Origin: a virus | IMG/VR virus record: IMGVR_UViG_3300044691_000045 | Coordinates: 1-54,020 of that record | Length of the DNA: 54,020 nt | Direction: 5' to 3' (one strand) | In this document: one piece after another, positions 296-15,998 of the stretch | How positions within the stretch are numbered: the first letter of the stretch is position 1 | Layout: each line of letters opens with the position of its first letter | Notes under the pieces: generated by a model | Seen by the model: only the letters and a program-made list of their open reading frames with translations | Databases searched by the model: none | What the model was told of the DNA's origin: nothing | Program-made: the position numbers and the translations under genes

Positions 296-312
296 AGTAG
301 AACCTCAAAAAT

Positions 313-355
313 AAGACCGCATAGACAATGTTTCACCACTCTGCTATGCGGTCTT
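313..355 (-). terminator. Rho-independent terminator at the end of the fibre/lysis operon
   Basis: A perfect 12-bp stem (AAGACCGCATAG at 313-324 with CTATGCGGTCTT at 344-355) encloses a 19-base loop. Read on the minus strand it is followed by TATTTTTG. It lies just after the stop of the gene at 365-799 and only 18 bases before the start codon of the small terminase gene. Confidence 0.8.
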
Positions 356-364
356 TTGGCAAAC

Positions 365-799
365 CTATCTGTTTACAATTCCCGGCGTAGGCGCGAAGTT
401 CACAGTTTGCTTTACTTGCGCTGCTGGTGCAGACACCTGTGCAACAGTAGTGCTGCTGCTCGCAATCTGTTTCGCCTGCATAATTACTTGCGGGAATGCT
501 GCGATGAATGCCTCAAATTCCTGTAGTGCTGACTGATCGGCACCGGCATTCAACAAACCTTGCTTGGCTGCCTCACCGCCGAGATGCAGCGCCGATGCCA
601 GTATGCCAAGCGCGGCATAGCTTACGCGCTCGATACCCACGATAGCGGGGCCGTAACCGGGCACCAGCGTTGACAGAGCCTCTACGGTAGGCTCAGTGCC
701 ATTGATCTTGAGCAACACGCCTGCAACCAACTCTGCGTCATGGGCGAGGGTTTGAAAGCCGCTAGCAATTGCGTGGTCAAAAGACGTAAAAATGCTCAT
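365..799 (-). CDS. Hypothetical protein, last gene of the putative lysis block (144 aa)
   Basis: I chose the ATG at 799 because AAGGAG stands 8 bases upstream. The frame is open further upstream but overlaps the neighbouring gene. The protein begins MSIFTSFDHAIASGF and has a moderately hydrophobic stretch around VPGYGPAIVGIERVSYAALG, then an alanine-rich helical region and a low-complexity end (STTVAQVSAPAAQVKQ). I recognise no family. It is last in the operon, directly before a strong terminator. It could be a small membrane-associated lysis factor or a virion protein, and the sequence does not decide. Confidence 0.55.
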   Translation of the reverse strand: MSIFTSFDHAIASGFQTLAHDAELVAGVLLKINGTEPTVEALSTLVPGYGPAIVGIERVSYAALGILASALHLGGEAAKQGLLNAGADQSALQEFEAFIAAFPQVIMQAKQIASSSTTVAQVSAPAAQVKQTVNFAPTPGIVNR

Positions 800-848
800 G
801 GGTAACGCTCCTTGTGCCAAAGGTACAGCAGGTTGTACAGCAGTTGGA

Positions 849-1154
849 CTACTTGATGTCTGCGACAGTTGCGGAGACAACAGCCTGTTTGGAGCTAGGG
901 GCCACTTCTGCGGTAGTAATCTTCTGTCCGTTGCGGTAGTTGAGATAGACGGCAACGGCAATGGGGAAACCTGCTTTGACCCAACCGGGAGCACCGGCGA
1001 TTGCGTGGTTAACGTTTGCCGCAATGCTGGCATCGGTGACATATAGCGCATACCCGCTTGCAAGCGCAACCGTAATGCCGTGAGTGAATCCGTTGTAGAC
1101 TTCCCAGAAGGTTTTTGGTTCATTTGATTTTACCGCCGCTACTGACGTTTCCAT
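849..1154 (-). CDS. Small membrane protein, holin candidate (101 aa)
   Basis: A strong GAGGAG ribosome-binding site lies 6 bases before the ATG at 1154. Two hydrophobic stretches can be seen, roughly residues 24-48 (around HGITVALASGYALYV) and 53-72 (around GWVKAGFPIAVAVYL), followed by a polar tail. The size and two-segment topology fit class II holins, which open the inner membrane at the end of infection. It sits in a run of small membrane proteins at the end of the late operon, the usual place for lysis genes, but no endolysin is recognisable next to it. The holin role is an inference from topology and position. Confidence 0.5.
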   Translation of the reverse strand: METSVAAVKSNEPKTFWEVYNGFTHGITVALASGYALYVTDASIAANVNHAIAGAPGWVKAGFPIAVAVYLNYRNGQKITTAEVAPSSKQAVVSATVADIK

Positions 1155-1166
1155 TTGCGCTCCTCA

Positions 1167-1487
1167 TTAGGCCATATCCAGCTTTCCCTGTATTCGCGCT
1201 ACGTTACGCAAGTTATCGCGCATATCCGTATACTGCTGATCCTGCGTTTTCTGTAACTGCGAAATTTGTTCACGCATAGTTGTCATTTGCGTTTGCTGTG
1301 TTCTAACCGTTTTCTCTAGTGTTTCGTAACTCACAATTAAAGTTTTCAGTTTCGCGTTGTCTACAGCGTTGCGCAGGAAAAAACCCATGCCCAACCCTAT
1401 AACTGTTCCCACCGGGGTAAGCAGTTCTATAACACTTCTCAACCAATCTGGTAGCATGGTTGCAACTGCATAGCCCGCTTCACGCAT
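1167..1487 (-). CDS. Membrane-anchored coiled-coil protein, inner-spanin-like candidate (106 aa)
   Basis: Residues about 12-40 form one membrane segment (SVIELLTPVGTVIGLGMGFF). The rest is a glutamine-rich coiled coil (LEKTVRTQQTQMTTMREQIS) with regular heptad spacing. An N-terminal membrane anchor with a coiled-coil body is the architecture of Rz-type inner spanins, which bridge to the outer membrane during lysis of Gram-negative hosts. I see no partner outer-membrane lipoprotein with a lipobox. The start lies 3 bases after the stop of the upstream gene. Alternatives are a holin-associated or superinfection protein. Confidence 0.5.
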   Translation of the reverse strand: MREAGYAVATMLPDWLRSVIELLTPVGTVIGLGMGFFLRNAVDNAKLKTLIVSYETLEKTVRTQQTQMTTMREQISQLQKTQDQQYTDMRDNLRNVARIQGKLDMA

Positions 1488-1489
1488 TC

Positions 1490-1951
1490 TTACGCTGCCC
1501 CAAACGTTTTCTTAGTTATGGCTAACTCATGGTTAGCTATCCAGTGCAAATTCATTGCACGTTGGTGTATGTCTTTTATCTTGTGCCATTCCAGTACATC
1601 GGCTTCCTCTGTTCTACGCAGAGTTAAGCGCAGATTAGCAAGCTGTCCGCCGAGATAGGCAAAGGTGAAGAATGACACCATAGAGTGTATTGTCCACCAC
1701 ACTATAGCAATAGCAAACGTGTTATGAGCAATGCTGAAACACGTTATGAATTGCGATATAGAGCAAGAGTAGAAAAACACAGATAGAACAACATTCAAAG
1801 AATGATGCCCGGATTTGCGGTCATGGGTAAGAATGTGGAAGAGTACAGCAATGCCCAGAACAAAGACACCTGTTGCTGCTGAGTCAACCAAACGTATGTC
1901 AGCAGCGTACATATTAAAGCGTGTCGTCATTAGCCAGTGCTCTAAATACAT
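1490..1951 (-). CDS. Multi-pass membrane protein, possible holin (153 aa)
   Basis: The ATG at 1951 has GGAG 5 bases upstream and starts 12 bases after the preceding stop. An alternative GTG at 1996 would overlap that gene and has no ribosome-binding site. Three membrane segments are visible at about residues 22-41, 50-72 and 76-103, followed by a charged cytoplasmic tail (RLTLRRTEEADVLEWHKIKD). It is the first of four small genes after the spike gene. A three-segment holin or anti-holin is plausible from position and topology, but the sequence matches no family I can name. Confidence 0.5.
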   Translation of the reverse strand: MYLEHWLMTTRFNMYAADIRLVDSAATGVFVLGIAVLFHILTHDRKSGHHSLNVVLSVFFYSCSISQFITCFSIAHNTFAIAIVWWTIHSMVSFFTFAYLGGQLANLRLTLRRTEEADVLEWHKIKDIHQRAMNLHWIANHELAITKKTFGAA

Positions 1952-1962
1952 ATAGTCTCCAG

Positions 1963-3807
1963 TTACAGCGTTGACGCTATTTGCATTTTGACCCACGTGC
2001 CAAACCCGTCAGCAGCATTGCTTTGCCAGCCGCCGCCGGGTGCTTCTGAGTCTATCGTGCATTTCCACCAAGCACCGTTATCTGTCTCTACCCACACTGT
2101 ACCGAAGGCCCATGCTGGCGTGCATGCTCCGCGTCCAGCACCGGAACCTTGCGGCGGTCCTGTGGTAGTCATGGTAAGAAAAGAACTCTGCGAAGCTGTG
2201 AAAGGACCGTCACCGTTGAAAAATAGTTTATCGCCAATGGCTAGCTCATTGAACACTAACCCTTGCGCAGCGGTAACATGCATTTCAACTAGCGCGGCAT
2301 TAGACATCTGCGGCGTGCCTGCTGTGCAGTAATTGTTAGTCGCTGTTGGCTCTGTAGTCTGCGTAAAACCCGGACCCCATGACCCCGATGTAACATTGAT
2401 AAAGCACGTAGCAAACGTGTTATCTGCTGCGTTGTCATGGATGCTGTAGTTATTTACAGCGTCTAGCTGTATCTGATCGTGATTGGTAGTATTGAAAAAG
2501 TTATCATGTATAGCGGTACCACCGGATTGACCGCCGTTTGTGCCCGGTACACCGTACAACGCTTGATTCGCAGTTACAGTTGTGGGCGAAGATTGGCCTA
2601 TCTTCATTGGCAGTTCTGCGCCCTCAAAGTATGCAAACTCTACTGAATCAGCGCGCGTCAAACCAAATGCTATCCCGCCTATACCATTTGATTCTACGTT
2701 TACGCCGATAAAATGGTTGTTGTAGTTTGGTGATTGCGTACCGGCTGCACCGTAGTTAAGACCGCCACCGCCATATGTTGCGCTTGTGGGGTAGATGTTA
2801 GAAAGACCATCTATAATACCCCAGCCACTATTATTGTTGTAGTTGCCGCCAATTACGGTAAATGCATTGCTGGCAAAAGCGGGACGCCCTTCCAAGTTCA
2901 ATCCATTCATGTTTGACTGTGCGGTATCATTGAATATGGTTACCACGTTAGCACCGCGGCTAATCATTCCATCCCCGGCTGTAAAACCAGTGATATTCAT
3001 ATTTTCGATAAGACCGCCCTGCTCTGCGCCGTCCATGCGTATTCCACTACGCGCGGAGGCTGTGCCTGTGAGTTTACCGCCGCTAATGTGAAAGTGATCC
3101 GCGCCAGTAAGTACCTCGATGCCTGTATCACTGCCTGTGTAATGCAACGTTACCTGTGGATCGATTTGCAGATAGTCATTCGCGGAAACAGGCAACTGCA
3201 TTGTTACGCTGTAGTTGTACGTAACACCCGGTACATACGGAACAAACACGTGAGTATGCGTAGCAAATGCTGTGTTAACCAGCGTTCCTACGTCTGTGCC
3301 ATTGGACGGCGCTACTGTACCCACACCGCTATCAGGATTTGAGTTGCCGGGAGGACCGACGGGACCGGCTATTGGAATAAAGGACGGCAATGGTACTGCA
3401 AACATACCTAGATTTTGCGTACACAGGTTAAACGGCGCAGAGCCTTCGATGTCTACGTTGTTGTAGATCGTAAACTTCTGCGTACTGGTATTTTGTATTG
3501 TAATGCGATAACGTATGTTAGTTGGCGATGTTCCGCTCGCATCCGCAACAGATAACGGTGTAACTAATTGCCCGTTGGATATGCTTCTAGTAACTACGTC
3601 TGTTGTTGCAATACCACCGCTGGCAAAAGTGAATGGCTGCGGCTTATTCGTCTGCGGATTGAACGCTTGAATATAGAACATGCCCGTAAGCATAGGTACG
3701 TTCGATGCGTCCATAATGCATGGCGAAGGCGTTGTAACCGGCGTTAGCGTCTGTGCTCCGGCAAAGGTTGCGAGCAAGAAAATAGTAGTTACAAGCCATG
3801 TACGCAT
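1963..3807 (-). CDS. Tail-spike-like protein with right-handed beta-helix and Sec signal peptide (614 aa)
   Basis: From the ATG at 3807 the protein starts with an 18-residue Sec signal peptide (MRTWLVTTIFLLATFAGA, then Q). A TTG at 3831 would add eight residues, and neither start has a strong ribosome-binding site. After a beta-rich head and a short collagen-like GPVGPPG segment comes a long region of short repeated strands (NITGFTAGDGM, NAFTVIGGNYNNNSG, DNFFNTTNHDQIQL) typical of pectate-lyase-like parallel beta-helices. Such folds in phages are tail spikes that bind or cut surface polysaccharide. It is the last structural gene before the lysis block. The fold is seen; enzymatic activity is unproven. 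A secretion signal is unexpected for a virion protein. Confidence 0.75.
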   Translation of the reverse strand: MRTWLVTTIFLLATFAGAQTLTPVTTPSPCIMDASNVPMLTGMFYIQAFNPQTNKPQPFTFASGGIATTDVVTRSISNGQLVTPLSVADASGTSPTNIRYRITIQNTSTQKFTIYNNVDIEGSAPFNLCTQNLGMFAVPLPSFIPIAGPVGPPGNSNPDSGVGTVAPSNGTDVGTLVNTAFATHTHVFVPYVPGVTYNYSVTMQLPVSANDYLQIDPQVTLHYTGSDTGIEVLTGADHFHISGGKLTGTASARSGIRMDGAEQGGLIENMNITGFTAGDGMISRGANVVTIFNDTAQSNMNGLNLEGRPAFASNAFTVIGGNYNNNSGWGIIDGLSNIYPTSATYGGGGLNYGAAGTQSPNYNNHFIGVNVESNGIGGIAFGLTRADSVEFAYFEGAELPMKIGQSSPTTVTANQALYGVPGTNGGQSGGTAIHDNFFNTTNHDQIQLDAVNNYSIHDNAADNTFATCFINVTSGSWGPGFTQTTEPTATNNYCTAGTPQMSNAALVEMHVTAAQGLVFNELAIGDKLFFNGDGPFTASQSSFLTMTTTGPPQGSGAGRGACTPAWAFGTVWVETDNGAWWKCTIDSEAPGGGWQSNAADGFGTWVKMQIASTL

Positions 3808-3840
3808 AGCGGAATAGTACCATCCTGTCAACGAATCTAT

Positions 3841-6800
3841 CTAACGTTTCTTTCTACCGTGCGCGGCATACGTAGTCTGCTGCGCAAGCGACGTACCGCC
3901 AACGGCGGTAACTGTCAAGGCTAGACTGTCGCTGTGTGTCAATGAGCCAGAAACCGCCGTCCACAGACCTACAGCCGATACGCTGCTGCCTTGCCCACTC
4001 ACCAGCACAGCACTATTCGCTGGCACGTACACACCCGCATGGCCGCTGGTGATCGTGGCTGTGTAAGGCGCACCGGGCACTGGAGGCGTATAGCTTAACG
4101 GTGATCCTTGCAACAGCACATTCGTGTTTACCTTGTCAGTTAATCCAGACGCATCCGACAGTGTGATTATATTCGCAGACGATATAGCTGCTGGGAATGT
4201 AACAGCCATATTCATATTAGTTGTGGATTCGTTTAGAATCACAACTGCCTGTGACCCGTCTTGGTGCTGCAAGCCGTACGCTTTTACGTTGTTACCGCTA
4301 GACGTTATAGACGTAGATAGCATGCTAGCTTGCTGGTTACCTTGCGTAGCAAGCGTGAACAACAGCAAGCCTGCGTACTTTGGCTGCTCTTGGTATGTGT
4401 ATCCGTCACTGTCCTGAATAACTGAGTACGGGTTTGATGGCGCAGTTCCCATACCGCCTGAAATCCAATTGAGCATAACAGCGCCAGATTTTGCTACAAC
4501 AAAGTTAAAATCTATAGCGTACAGCGCAGAACTAAACGTGTTGGATACGCCGTCTAATCCTCCACTGTAGATGTCGTTTGTTTCGTTTAAAACCCACGCA
4601 TCCGGATAAGTTGCTTGCGTGGTATGGATGCCGCTAACCATAGAGTTAAAAAAGCCGTCTGATGCTGTAAAACTAAGCATCTCTGCTATAGTTCCAGTAG
4701 TAGGCCCGTCATGGTAAAAGTGTGACGTATCCCATAGCAACAGATCGGCATTGGCTGCCTCCATTGCTGTTGAATAAGTGCCAGCGCTCGTTGCAACTCC
4801 TGTTGACGGTCCTACAAACTGAGCACTAGGTACAGCGGCTTGAATAGCCAGCGCATACGTACGCCATGCTGTTGCAAATGAGGATGCTGTATAACCAGCG
4901 CCGGTATAGCCTGTGCCGTCTGGTTCGTTGCCTATCTCAAATGCAACCAACGATGATCCTAGCTTTGATGCAACGTAGGTTGCCTCCGCTACTGCGACAG
5001 ATGTGGTATTGCCTAGAAAGCGCAGACCGTACGTGCATTTCCATCCGGTAGCTGTAAGAAACGCAGCTAGGTTGTCCACGTCAGACTGTGAAATTTGCCC
5101 GGTTGTTTGTCCTGCTCCTGCTGGTGTCCATACCTCGTTATCGCCAGTAACTAAGCGCAGTGTGCCATTGCCTAAGCCTTTGAAATCAGCAATACCGCGT
5201 GCGTTGTTAGAAGCAAAGAAACGTGTACCTGCCATCAGCTTTGACTTAGTGTAAGACAAGCCTTGAAAGCCAGCCGGTATGTTGCCCACAACTGCGGTTG
5301 TCATGGTGACAGTGCCGCTCGCGGGTGACGACGGTACAGGCTGTAGATTGGTTGCCGCTGCTGCCGAAGTTAGGACAACAGCTTGCGTACCGTTCGCTGC
5401 TAGCGTGAATGAGCTAGGCGCGGCTGTTACCCCTGTGGGCAAACCAGCAACCGTTACTGCTGCTGTAGCTGCGAACGTTCCTAGAGCCGTAGATACTACG
5501 TTTACTGTTGCCGTAGAACCTACAGTCATTGTTAGCGTATCTGGCGTGACCGCTATAGTAAAGTCAGACGGCGCACCCGCGCACGTGCCTGATAGCTTTA
5601 CCGGCTCTGTACCTAGTACGAAAGTACCGCCTGTAATCGTTGTGACATTTCCGCGCAAGTCTGTCTTTGTGGGGTAGCAGGTTGATACAGTTGTATGACG
5701 CTCATAACCTGTATCAAACATAAACTGTACTGTGCTGCCATCGTTGTTAAGTGCAGTTGCAGACCATACAGAATTGTATTTTGCATGTGCGCCTGTTACA
5801 TCGTCAAAATGCGTTGTGAATCGATTGATATTGTTGATCCAACCTAGCACAGTTGCATGCGCTTGCCCTGCTGGATGGATGCCGACAGCGTTTGTAAACT
5901 GATGGTTGCTGCGGTAGCAATCTGCTGCATTGGTATAGCTTGATCCGATGTACTCTATACCAAAACACGCAACAGAGTGTAGCTCGATAACGCTGCAATC
6001 GCCTGTTTTTAAGTAAGGAGAGCAATACGCATTCGTTGTCTTAGAACGATACAATGTTAGACCGCCGCTACCTGTGGAATCAAACTGATACCAATTGCTA
6101 CCGATAGGACCGCAGCCACGCGTGCCGCAACCTGTACCGTACAATGGATTTTGTGAGTCAGCAGTTATCAGCGCTAGTTGTCCCATATAACCGCGCTGAT
6201 TTGTTGCTGTGAATGTCGCACCTGTTAGTGAATCGGTACGCGTGTCGTCCTGCATCTGATCATCGAAGTAATAGCCGCCCTCTGTTTCGAGCATAGGCGC
6301 ATCAGGCAGCATCCATGTTTTGCTCTGAATAACTGAGCGCATACGCTGTCTAATCTCGATAATGGAATAGTTGCAATGTTTGTTTGTAGACGTGATGTTG
6401 GAAGGCGTACACATGGAACTACCGAAACCTGTGCGATGAATATATGATCCAGTAGTATCTGTGTTACTACCACTACCGTCACCAGATATAGCGTTAGTAG
6501 CTCCTACACCGGGGAATACAACCTCTTGGTCGCTGTAGTCATGATAACTAATGCCTATACGTGGATTATTAGCAAGATCAGGCGCAACAATGTGAAATTG
6601 ATCCAGCAGCGAGTTCATGTTCTGATCGCACAGACCATTCGTGCCGCCTATCGAGTATTGCTTACCACCGCACGCCATTGATCCGATGTAGTATGTGCAA
6701 TCACCGCAATAAGCAAACACGATACGCGCTTCGTCTGCTTCCTGTGCAGCTAACCGCGTCCATGTACCGCTCTGTTGGCCCCATTGCTGCCCAGTATCGC

Positions 6801-7476
6801 TCTCGTTCACGCCCTCGAAATCATGAATACGGCATATGCCTACTAGCGGCGTTGCTGGTCTACTCTTTACACCGCACACTTTCTGCATAACAGCAGTATA
6901 AAACTCCTGCTTAATGCAGTCACCTTTTGCACCGCTAGGCGTATCGCCGGGAGCACCATTGACAGCCACATTACCGCAACTAATGTTAGCCATCGCTGTC
7001 TGTACTACGCCAGTATCGCTGTAATAACTATCGTATGGGCGCAACGATGGGTTATCGCGTGTATCACTGCAACCTGTTAGACCAAACGCGGAAGTAGACG
7101 CTGCGCCTGCCCAGTGCGGAATTGCAGAATCAGAAAATACAGTACGCGCGCCTATAGCTTCATTAGCAGGTATCCACGACGTAAGCGGATTTGCCTGCCC
7201 AGTAGCGGCAAGTAGATTACCGCTACCAGTCATGTTATACACGCCACGGCACGTATGTATGTTGTACTCAGCTTCGCCAGCATTCGCGCGGGAAAAATTA
7301 GGCGGAGCTATACCAACCTTGTTTATTGCATCCTGCAAGTCCAGCGGATGCAATACGTATACATCAAGCGGAGTTACGTTAGGATTGGTGCGAGGATCAA
7401 TAGGCACAGCCTGAGAAAAAGCAGCTATGCTGCAAAACAGCAATAGACTAGAAGTTATAAACTGCCGCAATTGCAC
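3841..7476 (-). CDS. Secreted two-domain glycoside hydrolase, GH79-like C-terminal half (1211 aa)
   Basis: The GTG start at 7476 has GGAGG five bases upstream and overlaps the previous gene by 29 bp. A Sec signal peptide (FITSSLLLFCSIAAFSQ) opens the protein. Residues about 30-620 form a cysteine-rich domain with candidate clan GH-A glutamates E225 (in GVNES) and E397/E399 (in LETEG). An Ig-like linker spans about 636-725. Residues about 735-1190 resemble GH79 beta-glucuronidases: acid/base E851 in EIGNEPD and nucleophile E965 in VLNETN, 114 residues apart, the same spacing I recall for the Acidobacterium capsulatum enzyme (E173/E287). A beta-sandwich closes the protein. It probably degrades capsular or extracellular polysaccharide. 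The N-terminal enzyme assignment is inference. Confidence 0.75.
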   Translation of the reverse strand: MQLRQFITSSLLLFCSIAAFSQAVPIDPRTNPNVTPLDVYVLHPLDLQDAINKVGIAPPNFSRANAGEAEYNIHTCRGVYNMTGSGNLLAATGQANPLTSWIPANEAIGARTVFSDSAIPHWAGAASTSAFGLTGCSDTRDNPSLRPYDSYYSDTGVVQTAMANISCGNVAVNGAPGDTPSGAKGDCIKQEFYTAVMQKVCGVKSRPATPLVGICRIHDFEGVNESDTGQQWGQQSGTWTRLAAQEADEARIVFAYCGDCTYYIGSMACGGKQYSIGGTNGLCDQNMNSLLDQFHIVAPDLANNPRIGISYHDYSDQEVVFPGVGATNAISGDGSGSNTDTTGSYIHRTGFGSSMCTPSNITSTNKHCNYSIIEIRQRMRSVIQSKTWMLPDAPMLETEGGYYFDDQMQDDTRTDSLTGATFTATNQRGYMGQLALITADSQNPLYGTGCGTRGCGPIGSNWYQFDSTGSGGLTLYRSKTTNAYCSPYLKTGDCSVIELHSVACFGIEYIGSSYTNAADCYRSNHQFTNAVGIHPAGQAHATVLGWINNINRFTTHFDDVTGAHAKYNSVWSATALNNDGSTVQFMFDTGYERHTTVSTCYPTKTDLRGNVTTITGGTFVLGTEPVKLSGTCAGAPSDFTIAVTPDTLTMTVGSTATVNVVSTALGTFAATAAVTVAGLPTGVTAAPSSFTLAANGTQAVVLTSAAAATNLQPVPSSPASGTVTMTTAVVGNIPAGFQGLSYTKSKLMAGTRFFASNNARGIADFKGLGNGTLRLVTGDNEVWTPAGAGQTTGQISQSDVDNLAAFLTATGWKCTYGLRFLGNTTSVAVAEATYVASKLGSSLVAFEIGNEPDGTGYTGAGYTASSFATAWRTYALAIQAAVPSAQFVGPSTGVATSAGTYSTAMEAANADLLLWDTSHFYHDGPTTGTIAEMLSFTASDGFFNSMVSGIHTTQATYPDAWVLNETNDIYSGGLDGVSNTFSSALYAIDFNFVVAKSGAVMLNWISGGMGTAPSNPYSVIQDSDGYTYQEQPKYAGLLLFTLATQGNQQASMLSTSITSSGNNVKAYGLQHQDGSQAVVILNESTTNMNMAVTFPAAISSANIITLSDASGLTDKVNTNVLLQGSPLSYTPPVPGAPYTATITSGHAGVYVPANSAVLVSGQGSSVSAVGLWTAVSGSLTHSDSLALTVTAVGGTSLAQQTTYAAHGRKKR

Positions 7477-9805
7477 CGTTGCCTCCGTCAGTACCTAGTG
7501 TAGTGCCGCAAACTGTTGTGCTGTGTAATCCGCCGTTTGCTGTCACCTGAGTAGCGAAAAGATTGTTGCCGAAGTTATAGCCCATTGCTTCTAGCAGTAT
7601 GTTACCAGCGCCGCCGCCTGCGCCGGATAGCGATGTTCCGCCTGCGCACGGTCCACCGGGACCACCATCCGCACTAATCCGTCCGGTAGAACTGATAAGT
7701 AAGAATGTCGTTTTGATGTAGACAAAACCGCTAGGTTGACCGCCGAAGCCGCCTAGATGCGTACCGTCACCAAAGCCGGGAGCACCCTGCGCGCCGAAGC
7801 CGTGCTGTATCATCTCGCGCAGCAATGGCCCTGCGCCGGGGATCGTGAGGCCCGTAGTAGCGCTCATTCCCGCAACAGCAGAGGTACCACCGCCTAGCGG
7901 CGTGGATTGGTTAGGGTATTGCCGCCTTCCGCCGCCGTTGATCGCTGTAGTGCCGCCGCCAGCGCCGCCCTGCCCACCGGCAAGCGGAGTGAATGCAGAG
8001 CTTGTGCTTGTCTGTCCTGAAACCGTGCCAGCAATTGCGCCCGTTGCTGCTAGGCTACACGTACCGGATACTGCCGCAGGCCACTGCGATGTAAATGCAA
8101 TACCGCCAAGAGATGCAATGGTTGCAGATGGAACGTGGCTATTTATAATTCCAGCACCGTAGCACAGGAATGATGAAAAGTGTGCATAGCCATCTATGAA
8201 TGCTGTTGTACCGTTGACAGTGAATGAGCCGCTTAGACCATTACCGCCGTTTGCCATGATTGCAAACGGAGATGTACCATACATGAATGGCGCAGCAAAC
8301 AGTGTAAACGTGCTTCCATTGTAGCCAACATCCCCAAGCGCAACAACCTGTGGCGATGCTACCGACCATCCAGCAGTAGTTGTGCCGTCGCCTGTTGTAC
8401 TAGTCATCCACAACTGTGTAGACATATCGAACCAATACGCAGGATTAGAGACAGTACCGGAATTGATCGGCGTGTTTATCTCAAATTGCACAATTGGCGC
8501 AGTTGTTGTATCTATCCACGTAAGACTGCCGCAACTTCCATCTGACTGAGCAATAAAAGATGCAAACGGAAAGTGCATGCCAGCAATAGCACTGGGAGTT
8601 ACAGTATTAGTTCCTACCCAACTACAAGTGCCACTGCTATTATTCATAACTAGCGGCTGCGTAGATGTTCCGCGTTCGATAAACGTATTACCGCTGTAGC
8701 GTAAGTAATCTGGAATGCCGAGTGTGGGCGACGTTGTTACAGGTCCGGATACTACAGAATTTGCAACAGTAGAGTACAGCGCAGAGGACGCGCCTAGCGT
8801 CTGGTTAGACGGATTGTAGGTTAGCGGCGGTTGTGCCACAGCTACACCCGGCGTACCTTGCGCACCGGGCGCACCCGGCGTACCGTTAGCGCCATTGGCA
8901 CCGTTCGCACCAGCAGGCCCAGCCGGTATGCCCACATTCAGGGCGTACAGCGTGCCGCTGGGATTAGTTACGCTGATAGTCGGTGACGCACCATTGGCTA
9001 GTCCTATTGCAGTGCCAGCCTGAAAGGTAGGTGTTACGCCTGCGCTACCTGCTGGTCCTGTTGGCCCGGTTGCGCCTGTTGCGCCTGTTGCGCCGGTTGC
9101 TCCTGCTGTACCTGCTGGTATAGATACATCTAACGCAAACACGTGTGTGCTTACAGTGCGTACAGTAACAGACGGCAATGTACCCGCACTTGTCTGTGTA
9201 GTTGTACCGCTAATAAACGATGGCGGAGTTGTACCGCTTATACCTGCTATCTGCGCAGCAACATACGCCTGATCCGCAAGCGGAGAACCACCGGAGCTAG
9301 TAAGCGCACCCTTCAGTGTTGCACCATTCAACAGTGTTGTAACTGTGTCTGATGTGATAGTAGTGGTACCGTTGGATAGATTCAGGCCGTACGTACCAGC
9401 TACCGGCTGTGATCCGTTGTAAGTTTGCAGAATAATCGTACCGGCTAATAGATCAGTTGGCGACGTAGCCGCCTGTGATGCCGTACCGCTGGGAGATGTG
9501 CAATAGTTCCACGTAAGTGGCGCAAACGTTTGTGTAGCGAATGTAAACGTTTGCTTATTGAATACGTCAATCAAACGCACAGTGTACGTACCTGCTTGCA
9601 CGATCATGCGCGGAGATACAGTACCGTTTATTACTGCTGCGTATTGGGTTAGTCCCGCACCTGTGGGAGTAACAACAAGAGCGCCTTGCTGTTCCAATCC
9701 AGACGCGCCAGTAACGCAGCCATCGCCAAGCACTGTTACACTGGCTTGTCCAAAGAGCAAAGGTGCGCAAAGCGCTAGATATAAGCATAAAACAATTTTA
9801 CGCAT
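7448..9805 (-). CDS. Collagen-like and glycine-rich tail fibre with Sec signal peptide (785 aa)
   Basis: AGGAG stands 7 bases before the ATG at 9805. The N-terminus is a signal peptide (MRKIVLCLYLALCAPLLFG, then Q). Two tandem modules follow, each a short beta segment ending in ALDVSIPAG or ALNVGIPAG and then Gly-X-Y repeats (GATGATGPTGPAG; GANGTPGAPGAQG), a layout common in trimeric phage fibres. The middle is beta-rich and the last 200 residues contain polyglycine runs (GGQGGAGGG, GGAGGGAG) reminiscent of glycine-rich receptor-binding adhesins such as T-even gp38. It is probably a receptor-binding fibre. The exact tip function is inferred. Confidence 0.75.
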   Translation of the reverse strand: MRKIVLCLYLALCAPLLFGQASVTVLGDGCVTGASGLEQQGALVVTPTGAGLTQYAAVINGTVSPRMIVQAGTYTVRLIDVFNKQTFTFATQTFAPLTWNYCTSPSGTASQAATSPTDLLAGTIILQTYNGSQPVAGTYGLNLSNGTTTITSDTVTTLLNGATLKGALTSSGGSPLADQAYVAAQIAGISGTTPPSFISGTTTQTSAGTLPSVTVRTVSTHVFALDVSIPAGTAGATGATGATGATGPTGPAGSAGVTPTFQAGTAIGLANGASPTISVTNPSGTLYALNVGIPAGPAGANGANGANGTPGAPGAQGTPGVAVAQPPLTYNPSNQTLGASSALYSTVANSVVSGPVTTSPTLGIPDYLRYSGNTFIERGTSTQPLVMNNSSGTCSWVGTNTVTPSAIAGMHFPFASFIAQSDGSCGSLTWIDTTTAPIVQFEINTPINSGTVSNPAYWFDMSTQLWMTSTTGDGTTTAGWSVASPQVVALGDVGYNGSTFTLFAAPFMYGTSPFAIMANGGNGLSGSFTVNGTTAFIDGYAHFSSFLCYGAGIINSHVPSATIASLGGIAFTSQWPAAVSGTCSLAATGAIAGTVSGQTSTSSAFTPLAGGQGGAGGGTTAINGGGRRQYPNQSTPLGGGTSAVAGMSATTGLTIPGAGPLLREMIQHGFGAQGAPGFGDGTHLGGFGGQPSGFVYIKTTFLLISSTGRISADGGPGGPCAGGTSLSGAGGGAGNILLEAMGYNFGNNLFATQVTANGGLHSTTVCGTTLGTDGGNGAIAAVYNF

Positions 9806-9814
9806 GAAATGCTC

Positions 9815-10522
9815 CTAGATCGGTCGTGATATTTTGTGCGGTACTGCTGCTGTGGTTGTTTCTTTGAAAGCAATGCCCATGAATGCGCCTGTATTGGCTG
9901 TTGTAGGGGCATAAGGTAACGCTGTAGATGCTGTAGTGTTAATTGCTCCTGTATACGCATTGCCGCTGGCAGGAAAATCACCTGGCGATGTAAATGGAGC
10001 GCTAGCGCCGGTAATAGAAGCATTCCACTGTACACACTGCACAATCACATCATTAGTGCCGGTTAGAGTCAACGCGACATTAGTAGGGGCAGCAGACGTA
10101 CTTTGACTTCTCAGACCGGAGGTATCGTAAATAGCAGGTCCGGAGGTTGTTGAATACTCAAAAATTTCAAATTCGCCGCCGTTTGTTACACTTGTGGTAG
10201 CTGTAATTGTCGTGTTACCGCTAGTGGATGATAGCGTGTAATAGGCATCGATAGCATTGTTGGTTACTAATGCGTTGCAACTTGGGCAATGCACCCAAGT
10301 CATTGCCGTTCCGCCTGTGCTAGACATCGCAGTCATGGCACCTGAAGACGACGGGATAGTACGTACGGCAACGATCAGATGACTCGCGCCTGTCGCAGTC
10401 GTGGTTACGGCACAGGTTGTAGCAGTGGGGCAACTGGAATTTATCGGATGCTGTACAAGCGTCCATGTAGCACGCGCTTGTGCTGATACCAACAACAAAA
10501 GTGCGAATATAGGTATACGCAT
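9815..10522 (-). CDS. Secreted beta-rich fibre-associated protein (235 aa)
   Basis: A Sec signal peptide (MRIPIFALLLLVSAQARA) precedes a threonine/serine-rich, strand-rich body with paired cysteines (SSCPTATTCAV, HCPSCNAL). The start codon shares one base with the upstream stop (TGATG), so the two genes are translationally coupled. The repeated short strands resemble jelly-roll or lectin-like domains found in fibre accessory proteins, but I cannot name a family. It sits between two other signal-peptide fibre genes, suggesting a shared surface role. Confidence 0.6.
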   Translation of the reverse strand: MRIPIFALLLLVSAQARATWTLVQHPINSSCPTATTCAVTTTATGASHLIVAVRTIPSSSGAMTAMSSTGGTAMTWVHCPSCNALVTNNAIDAYYTLSSTSGNTTITATTSVTNGGEFEIFEYSTTSGPAIYDTSGLRSQSTSAAPTNVALTLTGTNDVIVQCVQWNASITGASAPFTSPGDFPASGNAYTGAINTTASTALPYAPTTANTGAFMGIAFKETTTAAVPHKISRPI

Positions 10523-11166
10523 CAGTTAGCCTGCACAGTTAACGCGCGTGGAATTGTAAGCTGTACGCCAAGCACATACGCTGCTGTGGCTGTGTCTGTG
10601 CCGCGCACTACCTTTACTTTCATCAAACCACCGGCAAGGCATCCCGTAGTGGTCATGCTAGTAAGCGTAGCTGTCCACATCTGATTGCCTACCGTGCCTA
10701 GCGTTATTGTGCTCATAGCTTGCACCGTATTAAAAGCAACATCATCGGAGGTTGATCCGTCGCCTTTTTCACATGATGTTGCTAGCTGCATAATGATGGT
10801 ATGCCCACTCGTTACATCCGACGTTGCGACATAGAGCCTAGCATTCAGCGCAGTTGTGCTATCCCAATCCAGCGGCAACGCTACAGTAAACTGTGCCGAG
10901 TTTGTATCTGCAAAGTTTAGCGCCGCATCCAGCGTGTTAGCTCCGATGCGCGTAGTAGCGGCTGGACCGCCCGATGCGGGTATATTCCAGCTTGACGACG
11001 CGGTACCGGAGATAATACCAGCAGAGGGTACATACTTAGTATCCGGCACAGTTGCTATGTTTGCCATAGGCAGCTTGTTCTTAACTTGCGAAGTCAAGTC
11101 TACCTTGTTCTGTGCGAGCGCACACATGCTACACAACAGCAACAGACTAGTAACGATACCACGCAT
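10522..11166 (-). CDS. Secreted beta-sandwich fibre-associated protein (214 aa)
   Basis: The ATG at 11166 has AGGAG ten bases upstream and overlaps the previous gene by 20 bp. The N-terminus is a signal peptide (MRGIVTSLLLLCSMCALAQ). The body (ALNFADTNSAQFTVALPLDWD, LYVATSDVTSGHTIIMQLAT) looks like the jelly-roll domain often seen in phage fibre and adsorption proteins, with alternating strands and few helices. It has two central cysteines, one in ATSCEKGDG. No specific family is recognised; the role in host binding is inferred from its neighbours. Confidence 0.6.
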   Translation of the reverse strand: MRGIVTSLLLLCSMCALAQNKVDLTSQVKNKLPMANIATVPDTKYVPSAGIISGTASSSWNIPASGGPAATTRIGANTLDAALNFADTNSAQFTVALPLDWDSTTALNARLYVATSDVTSGHTIIMQLATSCEKGDGSTSDDVAFNTVQAMSTITLGTVGNQMWTATLTSMTTTGCLAGGLMKVKVVRGTDTATAAYVLGVQLTIPRALTVQAN

Positions 11167-11503
11167 AAACGTTTGCTCCTGTGGGCACTGTCTGTACCGC
11201 TGTTAGCGTAGCACCGGAAATAGTATAATCAACTGTTTGTTGCCAAGTAACACCATTAACTACAAGAATTAAACTTAGCGAAGGACTAGGCGCGTGTGCA
11301 AGCGTTGCTGATCCACTGGCAAACGTAACTGCTTCGCTGTCCGCAAAATTCATCTTTGCGCTAGTGGGTAACATAGTGTTGTCTATGAACCCACTTGCAT
11401 TCAACTCAGGTATCTTACCAGCAGAGCCAGCACCCGCCGATGTTGCAACGGTTGCTGTCTCTGTCGGTTGCCCGGATACGTTTTTTAGTAGCTTTGTCGG
11501 CAT
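11147..11503 (-). CDS. Small tail-fibre protein, paralogous N-terminus with next gene (118 aa)
   Basis: It starts MPTKLLKNVSGQPTETATVA and carries the segment TSAGAGSAGKIPELNASGFI, nearly the same as in the protein encoded at 11510-12022. This N-terminal module of about 45 residues is a common fibre building block. The rest (LSLILVVNGVTWQQTVDYTI) resembles a small beta domain with a conserved NGV-x-Q pattern found in virion appendage proteins. No signal peptide. The 3' end overlaps the next gene by 20 bp. Confidence 0.6.
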   Translation of the reverse strand: MPTKLLKNVSGQPTETATVATSAGAGSAGKIPELNASGFIDNTMLPTSAKMNFADSEAVTFASGSATLAHAPSPSLSLILVVNGVTWQQTVDYTISGATLTAVQTVPTGANVYAWYRY

Positions 11504-11509
11504 GTTTCC

Positions 11510-12022
11510 TTACGCGAGTACGATAGTAAACAGCGACGGCTGGAAATAAAACGTGCTTGCGGACGTAGCGCGACCAATGGATTGCAGCAAGTTACCTGCT
11601 GTAGCCGGAGGCGTAGCAGTTGCCGCACCATTTGTGCCAAGGTAGTACAATCCGGTAGACAACGCAGACAACCCGGTAATCAAGCCCTCGCCCATCGTGA
11701 TAGAACCAGATGCACCGCTGGTGATACCTGCGCTCGCAAAGCCATTGGCTTCGCTACCTGCTGTAGTATTGTCAGCAGGCTTTACTTGTAACACGGTACC
11801 AGACCATGATACGTTGACGATTTGACCGGCTGTGATCGTTGCGGTTGCAGTTGCAGTAACAACAATCAAGCCGCTTGTCGCTGCAAGCATAGTTGGATCA
11901 ATCAAGCCACTACCGTTAAGTGCAGGAATCTTGCCAGCATCTCCAGCACCAGCAGACGTTTGTATTGCCGCTTTCTCTGTTACTTGTCCTGCGCTGTTAA
12001 AAAGATACTTATTACCTGCCAT
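11510..12022 (-). CDS. Tail-fibre/decoration-like protein, paralogous N-terminus (170 aa)
   Basis: It begins MAGNKYLFNSAGQVTEKAAI and contains TSAGAGDAGKIPALNGSGLI, matching the module in the neighbouring 118-aa protein. The C-terminal part (IVVTATATATITAGQIVNVS, EGLITGLSALSTGLYYLGTN) resembles head-fibre or DUF2190-like decoration domains. CTCC just upstream of the start (GGAGAACAC before ATG on the coding strand) is a good ribosome-binding site. It has no signal peptide, unlike the genes on either side. Role: virion appendage, by context. Confidence 0.6.
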   Translation of the reverse strand: MAGNKYLFNSAGQVTEKAAIQTSAGAGDAGKIPALNGSGLIDPTMLAATSGLIVVTATATATITAGQIVNVSWSGTVLQVKPADNTTAGSEANGFASAGITSGASGSITMGEGLITGLSALSTGLYYLGTNGAATATPPATAGNLLQSIGRATSASTFYFQPSLFTIVLA

Positions 12023-12031
12023 GTGTTCTCC

Positions 12032-12823
12032 TTATGGTGCTAGTAAGATAGGTGGCTGCATTTGAATAAGCAACTGTGTTGCTGAAATTGGCACACCTAT
12101 TACCTGCACAAAGCCGGTAGATGGTGGCGTCTGTGTGAGCATCCCAGATGTACCTAGAAATACAGGCTTTGACGTATCAAATGCCCAGCCTGCATTAACG
12201 AGTGTTCCCCCGTTTTGAATGCTTACCGTACCACCTGCCGAAGCACCATTTGCCGCTACGCCCACAACCATATCTAGGTGGCCTAGTAAGCTGTTGTCTG
12301 CGTATTGAACTACACCATTGACAACAGCAATAACGCGGTACTGCCCTATACCTACTGTTGTGGTTAAATTGAGAACTGACGCAGTACCGGGCGCACCCGG
12401 CGGCCCTTGTGGGCCAACTACCAGAGTGCTGGGTATAGTTGGATTAGCGAGCGCCGAGTTCCATAGACCGAAATCAAAGGTAATGCCATCTGTTGCGTTT
12501 GCTGTGATGTTTACCAGCGTGTACGTAGTACGTACTAGCGTGCTACTGCTGTGATCCTCAACAATGAATGTGAACAGCAACCCGTTTGGCGACGTGTAAC
12601 GGGGATCAGGCAGGGATAGAGCATCGCCCGTATGCGCCGGGAATAGCCAGCCTTTGTATATCAGGAACTCGTACGGCTCAAGCGAAGCCTGCCCACCGCC
12701 ATCTAGCAGATAGGGTATAGCTTGCGCGTTCTGATCGGTCGCGTACACTAGCAACTTACCTATGGCTATAGGTTGGCTACCAGCGCCAGACAACGCAGAC
12801 GCAGCGATAGGAACTGTGCGCAA
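12032..12823 (-). CDS. Collagen-linked fibre protein (263 aa)
   Basis: The start is a TTG at 12823, two bases after the upstream stop. No in-frame ATG exists near the N-terminus, so the rare start seems real. The first 135 residues are beta-rich (KLLVYATDQNAQAIPYLLDG), followed by a short collagen-like linker (GPQGPPGAPG) and a C-terminal domain (GIGQYRVIAVVNGVVQYADN, FVQVIGVPISATQLLIQMQP) similar to a head-fibre or decoration beta domain. No signal peptide is present. It is likely a fibre or baseplate appendage. Confidence 0.6.
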   Translation of the reverse strand: MRTVPIAASALSGAGSQPIAIGKLLVYATDQNAQAIPYLLDGGGQASLEPYEFLIYKGWLFPAHTGDALSLPDPRYTSPNGLLFTFIVEDHSSSTLVRTTYTLVNITANATDGITFDFGLWNSALANPTIPSTLVVGPQGPPGAPGTASVLNLTTTVGIGQYRVIAVVNGVVQYADNSLLGHLDMVVGVAANGASAGGTVSIQNGGTLVNAGWAFDTSKPVFLGTSGMLTQTPPSTGFVQVIGVPISATQLLIQMQPPILLAP

Positions 12824-12824
12824 T

Positions 12825-13298
12825 TTAGTAGATACCGTAGGTAATGAGTGCTTGCGCGCCCGTTGGTGCTACTGACATATTCAGGCACAATCCATTGCCC
12901 ACAGGAACAGACAAGCCGCCTCCCATAGTAAATGATTCCTGATAGGTGTCTGTGACAGATGCCGTGCCTAGAAACAGCGGCGTTACTGTCGTGGTTCCGG
13001 TAACGCACGCTGCGCCTGTACCAGCGGCAAGGCCGAAGTTAGCAGGCGTGGCCGTCTGCTTTACTTTGAGGGTAACTGTGCAGATGTGGATGGATTGACG
13101 CGATGGAACCGTAGTAGGTACAGCGCCGTTGTACAGCGTAGTAGCTCCGGTAGGCGCAGTGACAAGCTGTGTCTCGCCTGCGGCTACGCTGGACACTGCT
13201 ACAGCATAAGGGCAGATGGCAGAGCCACCATTGCCGCGCTGCGCGAGAACCGCGCTGGGGAGGAGTAAGAGTGCAGCAGCAGCTAGAAACAGGCGCAT
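12825..13298 (-). CDS. Secreted beta-rich protein, first gene of fibre operon (157 aa)
   Basis: GGAG lies 7 bases before the ATG at 13298. A clear signal peptide (MRLFLAAAALLLLPSAVLAQ) is followed by a cysteine-containing beta-rich domain (AICPYAVAV, SIHICTVTLKV, GLCLNMSVAPTGAQALITYG). The pattern, ending in a short strand, is like small phage decoration or receptor-binding domains. It is the promoter-proximal gene of the run that ends at 365, just after a terminator at 13337-13361. The mature protein would be about 137 residues. Confidence 0.6.
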   Translation of the reverse strand: MRLFLAAAALLLLPSAVLAQRGNGGSAICPYAVAVSSVAAGETQLVTAPTGATTLYNGAVPTTVPSRQSIHICTVTLKVKQTATPANFGLAAGTGAACVTGTTTVTPLFLGTASVTDTYQESFTMGGGLSVPVGNGLCLNMSVAPTGAQALITYGIY

Positions 13299-13336: not shown

Positions 13337-13361
13337 AAGGCGCATCATAAAGATGCGCCTT
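13337..13361 (-). terminator. Rho-independent terminator between accessory and fibre operons
   Basis: A perfect 10-bp stem (AAGGCGCATC at 13337-13346 with GATGCGCCTT at 13352-13361) closes a 5-base loop. On the minus strand it continues into TTTTGTGT. It separates the gene ending at 13384 from the fibre operon starting at 13298. Confidence 0.75.
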
Positions 13362-13383: not shown

Positions 13384-13719
13384 TTATAGCGTGACACCAC
13401 CAGTAGCGGCGGCTGGGGTAGGCGTAGGCGTAGGCGTGAGTGCTGCGTTGTCAGCGGTAAGCAACTGCTGCAAGATCACGTCCACTGCCTGAATGTGGGC
13501 AACCTGCGCGGCAGTATCCGGAGTCTGCGGCCCTGCCAGCAACTTGGCAAGAATCGCAGCATTGCTGGTTTTGAGCGTAGCCACGTCGGTGTCTACAGTA
13601 CCCAATGCCTTGTCGATGTCGGTCAAATCCATGTTGACTGTTCTCCTCAAATCTTCGATAGAACTGCGGATGTCTGCAAGAGCCGTTAACACGTGATTTT
13701 GAAAACGGCGCTCATTCAT
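13384..13719 (-). CDS. Small coiled-coil protein with Thr-Pro tail (111 aa)
   Basis: The middle (RRTVNMDLTDIDKALGTVDT) and what follows form an amphipathic coiled coil. The C-terminus is a (Thr-Pro)n stretch encoded by a short tandem repeat near 13420-13438. Two starts are possible: ATG at 13719, with a weak ribosome-binding site right after the upstream gene, or ATG at 13632, with a strong GAGGAG ten bases upstream, giving 82 residues. I list the longer form because its N-terminus looks coding. Small coiled-coil proteins at this place next to fibre genes are often appendage or chaperone proteins, but no family is recognised. Confidence 0.5.
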   Translation of the reverse strand: MNERRFQNHVLTALADIRSSIEDLRRTVNMDLTDIDKALGTVDTDVATLKTSNAAILAKLLAGPQTPDTAAQVAHIQAVDVILQQLLTADNAALTPTPTPTPAAATGGVTL

Positions 13720-13730
13720 AGCCTATAAAG

Positions 13731-14045
13731 CTAGTCGTCCAGCACGGCAGTGTCAAGTTTTTCTTCGTCATCTACCCACAAATAGAGCGTTTTTTTATCG
13801 CTAGATCGTTGGTAGAACAACTGTCCAACAAAAGGTGCGCCGTGTTTCTTTGTATGTGCGTTAATACGCTGTAGTAGGTAACCGGCTTCTTTTGTTGTCC
13901 CAACGTCAACCGCAATAGCTTGGTCCTTACCTACAGCTTTTGCCAGTGCAGTTAACAGTAGAGATGTGTACGAATTGCCGTTGTATTCATCTGCCGGTAT
14001 CTCGGAGCGCCGGACAGTAACAAAGCGCAACTCTCGGTTGCCCAT
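13731..14045 (-). CDS. Hypothetical protein (104 aa)
   Basis: The start at 14045 has GAGG 8 bases upstream. The protein is a mixed alpha/beta sequence with no membrane segment (SEIPADEYNGNSYTSLLLTA; APFVGQLFYQRSSDKKTLYL) and an acidic end (DDEEKLDTAVLDD). I do not recognise it. A hairpin terminator at 14062-14108 separates it from the upstream gene, so it probably has its own transcript with the following coiled-coil gene. Confidence 0.5.
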   Translation of the reverse strand: MGNRELRFVTVRRSEIPADEYNGNSYTSLLLTALAKAVGKDQAIAVDVGTTKEAGYLLQRINAHTKKHGAPFVGQLFYQRSSDKKTLYLWVDDEEKLDTAVLDD

Positions 14046-14061
14046 GCAAAGTACCTCGCTG

Positions 14062-14108
14062 CCAAAAAGTTAAACGGCGCGCGCCGGAGGCCAGTCCATC
14101 GCGCGCCG
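14062..14108 (-). terminator. GC-rich hairpin terminator
   Basis: A 9-bp perfect stem (CGGCGCGCG at 14075-14083 with CGCGCGCCG at 14100-14108) has a 16-base loop and is followed on the minus strand by TTTAACTTTTT. It lies 30 bases before the start of the gene at 14045. The neighbouring stretch 14109-14277 contains no gene I can support. Confidence 0.6.
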
Positions 14109-14277
14109 CTGTCCCTATGCTATATGGTCCTAAACTGCAACCAAAGGTGCGGAATGACTAACACGTCTCAGCGCACCCACAGCACAGGGATACTTTAGAG
14201 TTGCGCGGCAAGTCGAATTAGAGCATCGCCGCGCAACTGTTGCCCAAACATCGGCAACTCTTCCGGGGGAGGAAGGG

Positions 14278-14823
14278 TTAGGAATCGCGCCAGACACGCA
14301 CGCCCTTAACGCCGTTCTCTTCCACCGACCGTGTAGAGAACTTGCGGTCATACGCAAGCACCTGTACGGTCTTGCCTTTGGCATTCACGCGCGTCTGTCC
14401 GGTTGGTTTGCCGAAGCGCCGCGCTGCCGATGAAACGATGCTCGGAAACGTCTTTTGCACGTTGGGCATCGCTGCCGAAACCGGGACAAAGAACGACTGT
14501 CCGGGCTGCATCTGTGCGAACGGATACATGCTGTTGCCAGCACCGCCGCGCCGCATCGCTGGCTTTACGATACCGCTGTCCAGCGTAAACACAGGCCGTT
14601 CCTTCGGTGCGCTCTGCTCGGAACTTGCGCCCGATACGGTGGAGATGTCCAGCGCGCGCACGCCGATGTGACCGTCCGGCAAACCGGCAACCGCCGCATT
14701 CAACTCTACCTTTTCGGGATCGAGTTCGTTCGCCTTGTCTTGTGGCAGAACGGCATAGCCATTCGCCTTCGTCTGCTCAACAACTGTTGCGTACAGCGAT
14801 GCCTTTTCTTTCTTTGAAAGCAT
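14278..14823 (-). CDS. GQSF-domain protein, large paralogue (181 aa)
   Basis: GGAG lies 8 bases before the ATG at 14823. The N-terminal third is charged and helical (MLSKKEKASLYATVVEQTKA). The centre contains MYPFAQMQPGQSFFVP, a motif (YP-W/F, x2, GQSF, x, V/I, P) also present in the 81-aa protein at 18776-19021 and in reduced form at 23345-23530. The C-terminal part (SSAARRFGKPTGQTRVNAKG) looks basic and could bind nucleic acid. Small proteins with this motif are widespread in phages and of unknown function. It is likely an accessory regulator, by inference. Confidence 0.55.
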   Translation of the reverse strand: MLSKKEKASLYATVVEQTKANGYAVLPQDKANELDPEKVELNAAVAGLPDGHIGVRALDISTVSGASSEQSAPKERPVFTLDSGIVKPAMRRGGAGNSMYPFAQMQPGQSFFVPVSAAMPNVQKTFPSIVSSAARRFGKPTGQTRVNAKGKTVQVLAYDRKFSTRSVEENGVKGVRVWRDS

Positions 14824-14901
14824 GTGTGGTTCTCCGTTGCCAAAGTTTGTATTGCGTTCTATTGAGATGCTACATGCTGGTATGCATGTTGTAAAGAAAA
14901 A

Positions 14902-15297
14902 TTATAGCTGTGTCACGCTTATTGTTGCACTAGCATCTACTTCATATTCCTTACGCGCCAGCAACGAAACGATTTGCGCGTCATCTTCCCACACAATTCC
15001 ATTCAGCGCATCCAACACAGATTTGACACAGTTGTCAACGTCCGGCTTTTTTGTATGCTGCTTTAGCCAGTCTCCTTGAAAAGCAAAGCTAATGTCTATC
15101 TCCAGCGGTCCTGTAAGTACAGGTATACCGCTAGCCATAGCGTTGCGCGCACAAGATTGCACAAGATGCTCGTACGTCTTGGTTTTTTCCGGCGTACGCA
15201 TGTTGATGCCCATTCTACCGGCTTTGGTGCGGCCAACTGTGGCGCGTGGCCTGCCCTTGCCCACAGGAGTACCGGGCACGACAAAGGTTAGCCTCAT
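14902..15297 (-). CDS. rusA: RusA-like Holliday junction resolvase (131 aa)
   Basis: The protein carries PVGKGRPR near residue 11, then KKPDVDNCVKSVLDALNG and WEDDAQI, the aspartate-bearing motifs of RusA-type endonucleases that coordinate magnesium. RusA proteins are small homodimers that cut four-way junctions made during phage recombination and before packaging. Length matches the usual 115-140 residues. The start shares ATGA with the stop of the upstream gene, so the two are coupled. It would act with the annealing proteins encoded at 27672-29143. Confidence 0.9.
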   Translation of the reverse strand: MRLTFVVPGTPVGKGRPRATVGRTKAGRMGINMRTPEKTKTYEHLVQSCARNAMASGIPVLTGPLEIDISFAFQGDWLKQHTKKPDVDNCVKSVLDALNGIVWEDDAQIVSLLARKEYEVDASATISVTQL

Positions 15298-15503
15298 ACA
15301 CGCACCGAACGCGTAACATCCAGCACGTGATTGACTAAATCTTCGCAGTGCCGCGTAGTAAGGTAATCGGGATATAGCACGCGAAGTGTGTGCATGCCCT
15401 CAGTGTACCAGCGCTCCAAAGGATCGAAGTCCGGTAGAATAAGAAACGCTTTGTACAGCGCAATGTACACGTGATTGATAAGTGATTTTTCGTGCAGTGT
15501 CAA
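15294..15503 (-). CDS. Hypothetical protein upstream of the resolvase (69 aa)
   Basis: The start is a TTG at 15503, supported by the extended GGAGGCC ribosome-binding site used elsewhere in this genome. The protein (HVYIALYKAFLILPDFDPLE) is helical and soluble-looking with no known motif. The stop overlaps the resolvase start by four bases (ATGA), pointing to co-translation and perhaps a shared recombination role. Confidence 0.55.
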   Translation of the reverse strand: MTLHEKSLINHVYIALYKAFLILPDFDPLERWYTEGMHTLRVLYPDYLTTRHCEDLVNHVLDVTRSVRV

Positions 15504-15561
15504 GTGGCCTCCGACGGCTGTGATATGTCAGTGCAAATGCGTATCCAACATGAGGAGCAAA

Positions 15562-15840
15562 TTAGAGCATTGGCAGGCGAATTGGGCACCAAGACTTTGC
15601 ATTCGACACAGCGCCTGTATCCAACAGGGCACCAAGGGGTTTTTCGTACAACATGATCCATTCTTTTTTCTCCAGATGGTAAACATGACCGCTGGCTATA
15701 AAGGCCAACGTTGCTGCGGTTCGCGCCTGCGCCTGTGTAGCTTCCGGATCATGGTCAACGTATGGATTGTATGCGCCTGCTAGAGCCTGCGCAGCGTACG
15801 CCTGTGAGAGAAGCATATAGTGCTGCGTGTCGTGGCGCAT
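15562..15840 (-). CDS. Hypothetical protein (92 aa)
   Basis: GGGAG stands 10 bases before the ATG at 15840. The alanine-rich helical body (LLSQAYAAQALAGAYNPYVD) has no motif I recognise. It overlaps the small membrane protein at 15755-15961 by 86 bp in another frame, unusually long for this genome, so one of the two may start later than given here. Confidence 0.5.
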   Translation of the reverse strand: MRHDTQHYMLLSQAYAAQALAGAYNPYVDHDPEATQAQARTAATLAFIASGHVYHLEKKEWIMLYEKPLGALLDTGAVSNAKSWCPIRLPML

Positions 15841-15961: not shown

Positions 15962-15969
15962 GCGCAGAA

Positions 15970-15998
15970 GAATGAACGCTTTGCGTGATGGCTGTCAA
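15970..15998 (-). promoter_or_regulatory. Possible promoter for the small membrane gene
   Basis: On the minus strand a perfect TTGACA (15998-15993) is separated by 17 bases from TCATTC (15975-15970), followed closely by the ATG at 15961. A separate TATAAT lies at 16023-16018 without a good -35. The stretch 15962-16072 otherwise holds no gene. Confidence 0.3.

Follow-up and report, generated by a model that had tools for sequence, protein, structure and literature searches.

Signal peptides on six proteins of a phage operon suggest that some phages route tail fibres through the secretion system of the cell

The accepted view is that tail fibres are both produced and assembled inside the cytoplasm, and the virion-bound tailspike depolymerases of tailed phages are generally described as being made and assembled there too, without a signal peptide. 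The locus described here resembles the tailspike depolymerases in that large surface-binding or polysaccharide-cutting proteins are encoded in one late block, but six of its nine genes carry signals. It shares a phage-encoded glycoside hydrolase with the auxiliary metabolic genes of soil phages, although in this case the enzyme, of family GH79, shares its operon with fibre genes and with the genes of five further exported proteins. Other phage proteins are known to use the host Sec pathway, including o-spanins, SAR/Sec endolysins, exclusion lipoproteins and Lom, but these are single and mostly small lysis or conversion proteins and not a large set of fibres and enzymes. The target proteins of phage DGRs are stated to be without signal peptides (PMC6199706), and a literature search of partial coverage found no report of signal-bearing fibre sets.

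The window, by which we mean the whole stretch of DNA analysed, is a virus record of 54,020 bases, and because it has a 127-base terminal repeat it is most likely a complete genome. The phage is known from this genome alone and is apparently a siphophage with a Septimatrevirus-like core. Sequence comparison places its portal at 49% to Pseudomonas phages 73 and PSV3 and its TerL at ~53% to Septimatrevirus-like siphophages, which the primase, helicase, Cas4-like exonuclease and polymerase also match, while the J-like tail protein is 40–43% to Klebsiella phage Kmi2C and contig L013, both closer than phage 73. The head and tail core and the gene order are common to the window and Septimatrevirus (Pseudomonas phage 73, PSV3), as are the portal, terminase and replication genes; the window differs in lacking similarity outside this core and in carrying the export operon. 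The relatives are ~42–43 kb long, and the ~11-kb block at 1963–13298 makes up most of the difference in size. With a genome of 54 kb and best core identities of only ~49–53%, the phage is by sequence Septimatrevirus-like and not a member of that group. Elsewhere in the window there are a DUF7303 (phrog_7597) gene at 14278–14823, another, short member of this family at 18776–19021, and a DUF932 protein at 21507–22505 (Pfam match 4.9e-46). The TerL of viral contig L007 (6147–8153) has an intein-like insertion of ~200 aa, CWVQDTLISTPKGEV...GMLSSNTEAEDH.

On the minus strand the operon runs from 13298 to 1963, with a lysis-like block and, beyond it, terminase downstream. Its features are listed below in that order, with genes named by their lower coordinate, signals by their start, cysteines counted in the mature protein where there is a signal, and predicted cuts marked by a slash.

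13337..13361, minus strand: terminator-like hairpin just before the operon, a 10-pair stem AAGGCGCATC..GATGCGCCTT and then a T-rich stretch
12825..13298, minus strand: signal-bearing protein, 157 aa, 4 Cys; start ATG 13298, signal MRLFLAAAALLLLPSAVLA/QRG, Shine-Dalgarno AGGAG; no family match
12032..12823, minus strand: fibre protein with no signal, a collagen-like piece and no Cys; phrog_4368/30025/12121 C-terminal domain
11510..12022, minus strand: phrog_4368-like protein with no signal and no Cys; conserved neighbour of the 12032 family
11147..11503, minus strand: short protein with no signal and no Cys; N-terminus matches the 11510 family, weak PHROG tail-fibre match
10522..11166, minus strand: signal-bearing protein, 214 aa, 2 Cys; start ATG 11166, signal MRGIVTSLLLLCSMCALA/QNK, Shine-Dalgarno AGGAG
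9815..10522, minus strand: signal-bearing protein, 235 aa, 5 Cys; start ATG 10522, signal MRIPIFALLLLVSAQARA/TWT, overlapping the preceding stop (TGATG)
7448..9805, minus strand: signal-bearing fibre-like protein, 785 aa, collagen-like and glycine-rich, 8 Cys; start ATG 9805, signal MRKIVLCLYLALCAPLLFG/QAS, or cut FGQA/SVT, with Shine-Dalgarno
3841..7476, minus strand: signal-bearing protein, 1211 aa, GH79 at residues 712–1159 with E851 and E965; start GTG 7476, signal MQLRQFITSSLLLFCSIAAFS/QAV, or cut SQA/VPI, Shine-Dalgarno GGAGG
1963..3831, minus strand: signal-bearing protein, 614 aa from ATG 3807 or 622 aa from in-frame TTG 3831, 6 Cys; signal MRTWLVTTIFLLATFAGA/QTL
1490..1996, minus strand: small hydrophobic, likely membrane protein with hydrophobic stretches, overlapping the end of 1963
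1167..1487, minus strand: Rz-like spanin candidate (phrog_739, E 6e-6)
365..1154, minus strand: one or two small hydrophobic proteins, likely lysis or membrane (849–1154; 365–~800)
310..355, minus strand: hairpin and T-run, GACCGCATAG..CTATGCGGTC TTATTTTT, that could end the transcript before terminase

With one hairpin before the first gene and another after the lysis-like block, the operon and that block look like a single transcription unit. The hairpin at 13337..13361 is to be read with the finding that terminator-like sites in the region are no commoner than in shuffled sequence, and the site at 310..355 was recognised by eye and was not listed by the automated hairpin scan. Profile searches gave no family match for 1490..1996 or 365..1154, and despite the spanin candidate no endolysin gene was recognised in the parts searched (window 365–1996 and 13384–16792); a secreted lytic enzyme could be among the exported proteins.

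The operon appears to encode nine surface-binding or sugar-degrading proteins, six of them with a bacterial export signal. The original prediction called it a tail-fibre operon, a name that homology bears out for the unsignalled 12032 and 11510 and, weakly, for the unsignalled 11147 and for 7448, but not for 3841, which is a glycoside hydrolase. For 7448 the Pfam Collagen match is below the cut-off and the PHROG minor tail and tail fibre matches (E 2.5e-6 and 7e-4) fall on repetitive sequence, and 12825, 10522, 9815 and 1963 match no phage fibre or tail family, nor any other. Genes similar to 12032 and 11510 adjoin in ~20 other viral contigs. The products of 11147–11503 and 11510–12022 have their N-terminal ~45 residues in common, as after a partial duplication. 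No homologues of 1963, 3841, 7448, 10522 or 12825 were found in GenBank phages, none of 7448 or 1963 in whole viral records, and none of 12825, 3841 or 7448 in a scan of viral contigs that is sensitive to close relatives only. Single-sequence structure prediction gave low scores for 1963 (pLDDT 30) and 12825 (pLDDT 35).

Signals were sought in every called gene of at least 90 aa with a home-made Sec/SPI rule, not SignalP, that asks for a positive n-region, a hydrophobic h-region and small residues at −3/−1. Six of 57 window genes pass, all within the operon, and by this rule the six signal peptides that had been predicted at 13298, 11166, 10522, 9805, 7476 and 3807 are all present, as are the predicted unsignalled genes alongside them, which are three of the operon's nine (12032, 11510 and 11147). 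Among the Septimatrevirus-like relatives 15 of ~1,290 genes pass (1.2%), with a maximum of one in any nine consecutive genes; the probability of finding at least six in nine is 2e-10 at this background and 1e-8 with the rate doubled. Shine-Dalgarno sequences (AGGAG or GGAGG) lie 6–10 nt 5′ of the starts at 13298, 11166, 9805 and 7476; the ribosome site at 3807/3831 is weak. Immediately 3′ of the signals, inspection showed no alternative start preceded by a convincing ribosome site. The clustering statistics and the Shine-Dalgarno sites exclude chance or wrong starts as an explanation, and the scarcity of such genes in the relatives excludes signal clusters as a general habit of this phage group. 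A lipobox is absent from all six, which rules out lipoprotein signals.

At 9805 and 7476 the predicted cleavage site is less well defined than at the other four starts. This would suit N-termini that stay uncut, either as inner-membrane anchors facing the periplasm and acting in exclusion or lysis, or as hydrophobic segments for attachment to the tail. We regard this as very improbable, because the h-regions are short and nearly all cases have an A-x-A-type site, mostly followed by Q, a recurring feature that would be useless in an anchor. On the sequence, then, the six signal peptides are genuine, and they are probably functional.

In the product of gene 3841, the glutamates E851 and E965 lie in the motifs GNEPD and ETN, which we take to be those of the GH79 catalytic glutamates. 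The GH79 domain is complete, with residues 712–1159 matching PDB 5bwi at E 6e-42 and AcGH79 at E 1e-34, and both glutamates are kept in alignment with solved GH79 enzymes, so that judged from its sequence the product is a GH79 glycoside hydrolase and a predicted glucuronidase. The N-terminal half has no meaningful PDB match, and the motifs FEGVNE and LETEGG within it could mark a second TIM-barrel glycosidase. Degradation of the cell surface, as originally proposed, is thus supported for this one protein.

It had also been suggested that the domains derive from proteins secreted by the host and that the signals are dispensable; on this view the proteins would work in virions without export. 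GH79 and bacterial Ig-like domains are indeed typical of secreted bacterial proteins, and such an origin is possible for single domains, but dispensability fits poorly with six intact signals that have ribosome sites at their starts (four of them strong) and with the retention of signals in several lineages and in two diverged paralogues of phage Tunturi 4, described below. Since an unused hydrophobic signal is expected to decay or to misdirect its protein, we consider vestigial signals improbable.

If the signals work, the mature proteins would fold in an oxidising space, and a high and mostly even number of cysteines is what is expected of disulfide-bonded periplasmic proteins. We compared 14 mature signal-bearing proteins from the window, Tunturi 1 and Tunturi 4 with 39 other virion and tail proteins, a hand-picked set, and found cysteine at 1.82% in the former versus 0.49% in the latter (Mann-Whitney p=7e-7; window alone, p=0.0013). 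Cysteine counts are even in 11 of the 14, and there is no cysteine at all in the three unsignalled genes of the operon. As a test of export this is indirect. Two proteins, that of L013 and the largest of L275, are cysteine-poor despite their signals and count against folding in the periplasm, and cysteine content may also follow domain origin.

Five cultured phages of the acidobacterial genus Tunturiibacter, Tunturi 1–5, have been described (PMC11924767). Our comparison took in the complete genomes of Tunturi 3 and 4, the initial 50 kb of each of Tunturi 1 and 2, and, out of the 309 kb of Tunturi 5, the initial 100 kb. In Tunturi 1 and 2 the tail region encodes five signal-bearing proteins of 1190, 675, 919, 149 and ~1184–1280 aa in a run of six genes 5′ of the endolysin gene, at the podophage fibre/spike position, and the annotated starts include the signals. 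Tunturi 4, a siphovirus unrelated to these two, has three signal-bearing genes, gp111, gp113 and gp114, shortly before terminase, of which gp111 and gp113 are diverged paralogues with a common signal, a common N-terminal domain and two cysteines shared between them. As annotated, gp111 (PP885687; L281 32077–32434) starts too late to include an in-frame signal and fibre-like N-terminus that match gp113. These phages (PP887698, PP885685 and PP885687) thus resemble the window in having runs of large, cysteine-rich, signal-bearing tail-region proteins with A-x-A/Q-type sites, located 5′ of lysis genes in Tunturi 1 and 2 or of terminase in Tunturi 4; they differ in that their proteins have no sequence similarity to those of the window and in their virions (podo, sipho). 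The main text of the description (PMC11924767) makes no mention of signals on the tail proteins. The window phage has the same style of signal as the Tunturi phages; a tetranucleotide comparison pointed to no host for it.

The pattern extends to IMG/VR contig L275, where four consecutive signal-bearing genes follow tail-like genes and precede small membrane proteins. The first holds the phrog_12121 domain that is also found in window gene 12032, and in the second, which the rule missed and which was judged by eye at the internal start 13128, the signal runs directly into a PHROG tail-fibre-assembly family. L013 and L128 have one signal-bearing fibre-like gene each, near their J genes. Signal clusters are absent from Tunturi 3 and from the first 100 kb of Tunturi 5, where fibre genes are without signals, and they are therefore not a universal need for infecting Acidobacteriota. 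In Acinetobacter prophage-type loci (L131–L187) there are many small signal-bearing or lipoprotein-like genes near tail modules, including DUF4882 (L131, L138), and these look like conversion genes rather than fibres.

Export is thus favoured by the signals, the ribosome sites, the mature cysteine content and the recurrence in unrelated acidobacterial phages, as had been proposed, which leaves the question of where the proteins act. One answer is that they never enter virions and serve, unbound in the periplasm or outside the cell, as depolymerases, adhesins or receptor blockers, which would loosen exopolysaccharide, help progeny to spread or block superinfection. One member of the set is a GH79 enzyme, the Septimatrevirus relatives lack the operon yet possess a complete tail, which allows exported proteins that are not on tails, and the unsignalled fibre trio could be the sole virion part. 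This explanation would nevertheless leave Tunturi 1 and 2 with no candidate for a large fibre or spike at its customary position and does not sit easily with the tail-fibre family directly behind a signal in L275, and we judge it unlikely, if less so than either vestigial signals or uncut anchors. The fibre/spike position of the signal genes in Tunturi 1 and 2 argues instead that the proteins are virion components with a periplasmic stage, an option that the original prediction had not listed.

We propose that the operon would be a module of late genes for engaging the host surface, adjoining lysis-like genes. The cysteine-free fibre pieces 12032, 11510 and 11147 would remain in the cytoplasm and assemble conventionally, while the six cysteine-containing proteins would leave the cytoplasm through Sec, lose their signals to signal peptidase I, in most cases by a cut before Q, and would fold and form disulfides in the periplasm, accumulating until lysis frees them together with the progeny. 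Attachment to tails, at lysis or later, would then be the likeliest fate of the fibre-like exported proteins (7448, 1963 and the small ones). The GH79 glycosidase, tail-bound or free, would cut exopolysaccharide containing glucuronic acid. That the exported proteins of the window join tails at lysis, with the glycosidase as a bound or free depolymerase, could in our estimation go either way.

This proposal has in its favour the five signal genes of Tunturi 1 and 2, the three of Tunturi 4, the four of L275, and the order of operon and then spanin candidate; the unsignalled fibres of Tunturi 3 and of the searched part of Tunturi 5, phages of the same host genus, count against it. A wider reading is that some tailed phages, including several acidobacterial lineages, mature receptor-binding fibres and spikes outside the cytoplasm, by Sec export, signal cleavage and disulfide bonding in the periplasm, with the tails acquiring them no earlier than lysis. 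We tentatively give this wider reading a probability of roughly 0.4.

Six signal-bearing genes of nine in the operon, and the same pattern in cultured acidobacterial phages, suggest that some phages route tail fibres through the secretion system of the cell rather than finishing them in the cytoplasm. If this is true, fibre and spike proteins rich in cysteine would be exported as whole sets and assembled by a two-compartment route, which would account for fibre genes that are missing or misread, such as gp111 of Tunturi 4 with its annotated start lacking the signal. Phages would gain fibres stabilised by disulfides, or a supply of unbound enzymes that cut the surface, and because cultured Tunturi hosts and phages exist, the proposal is immediately testable.
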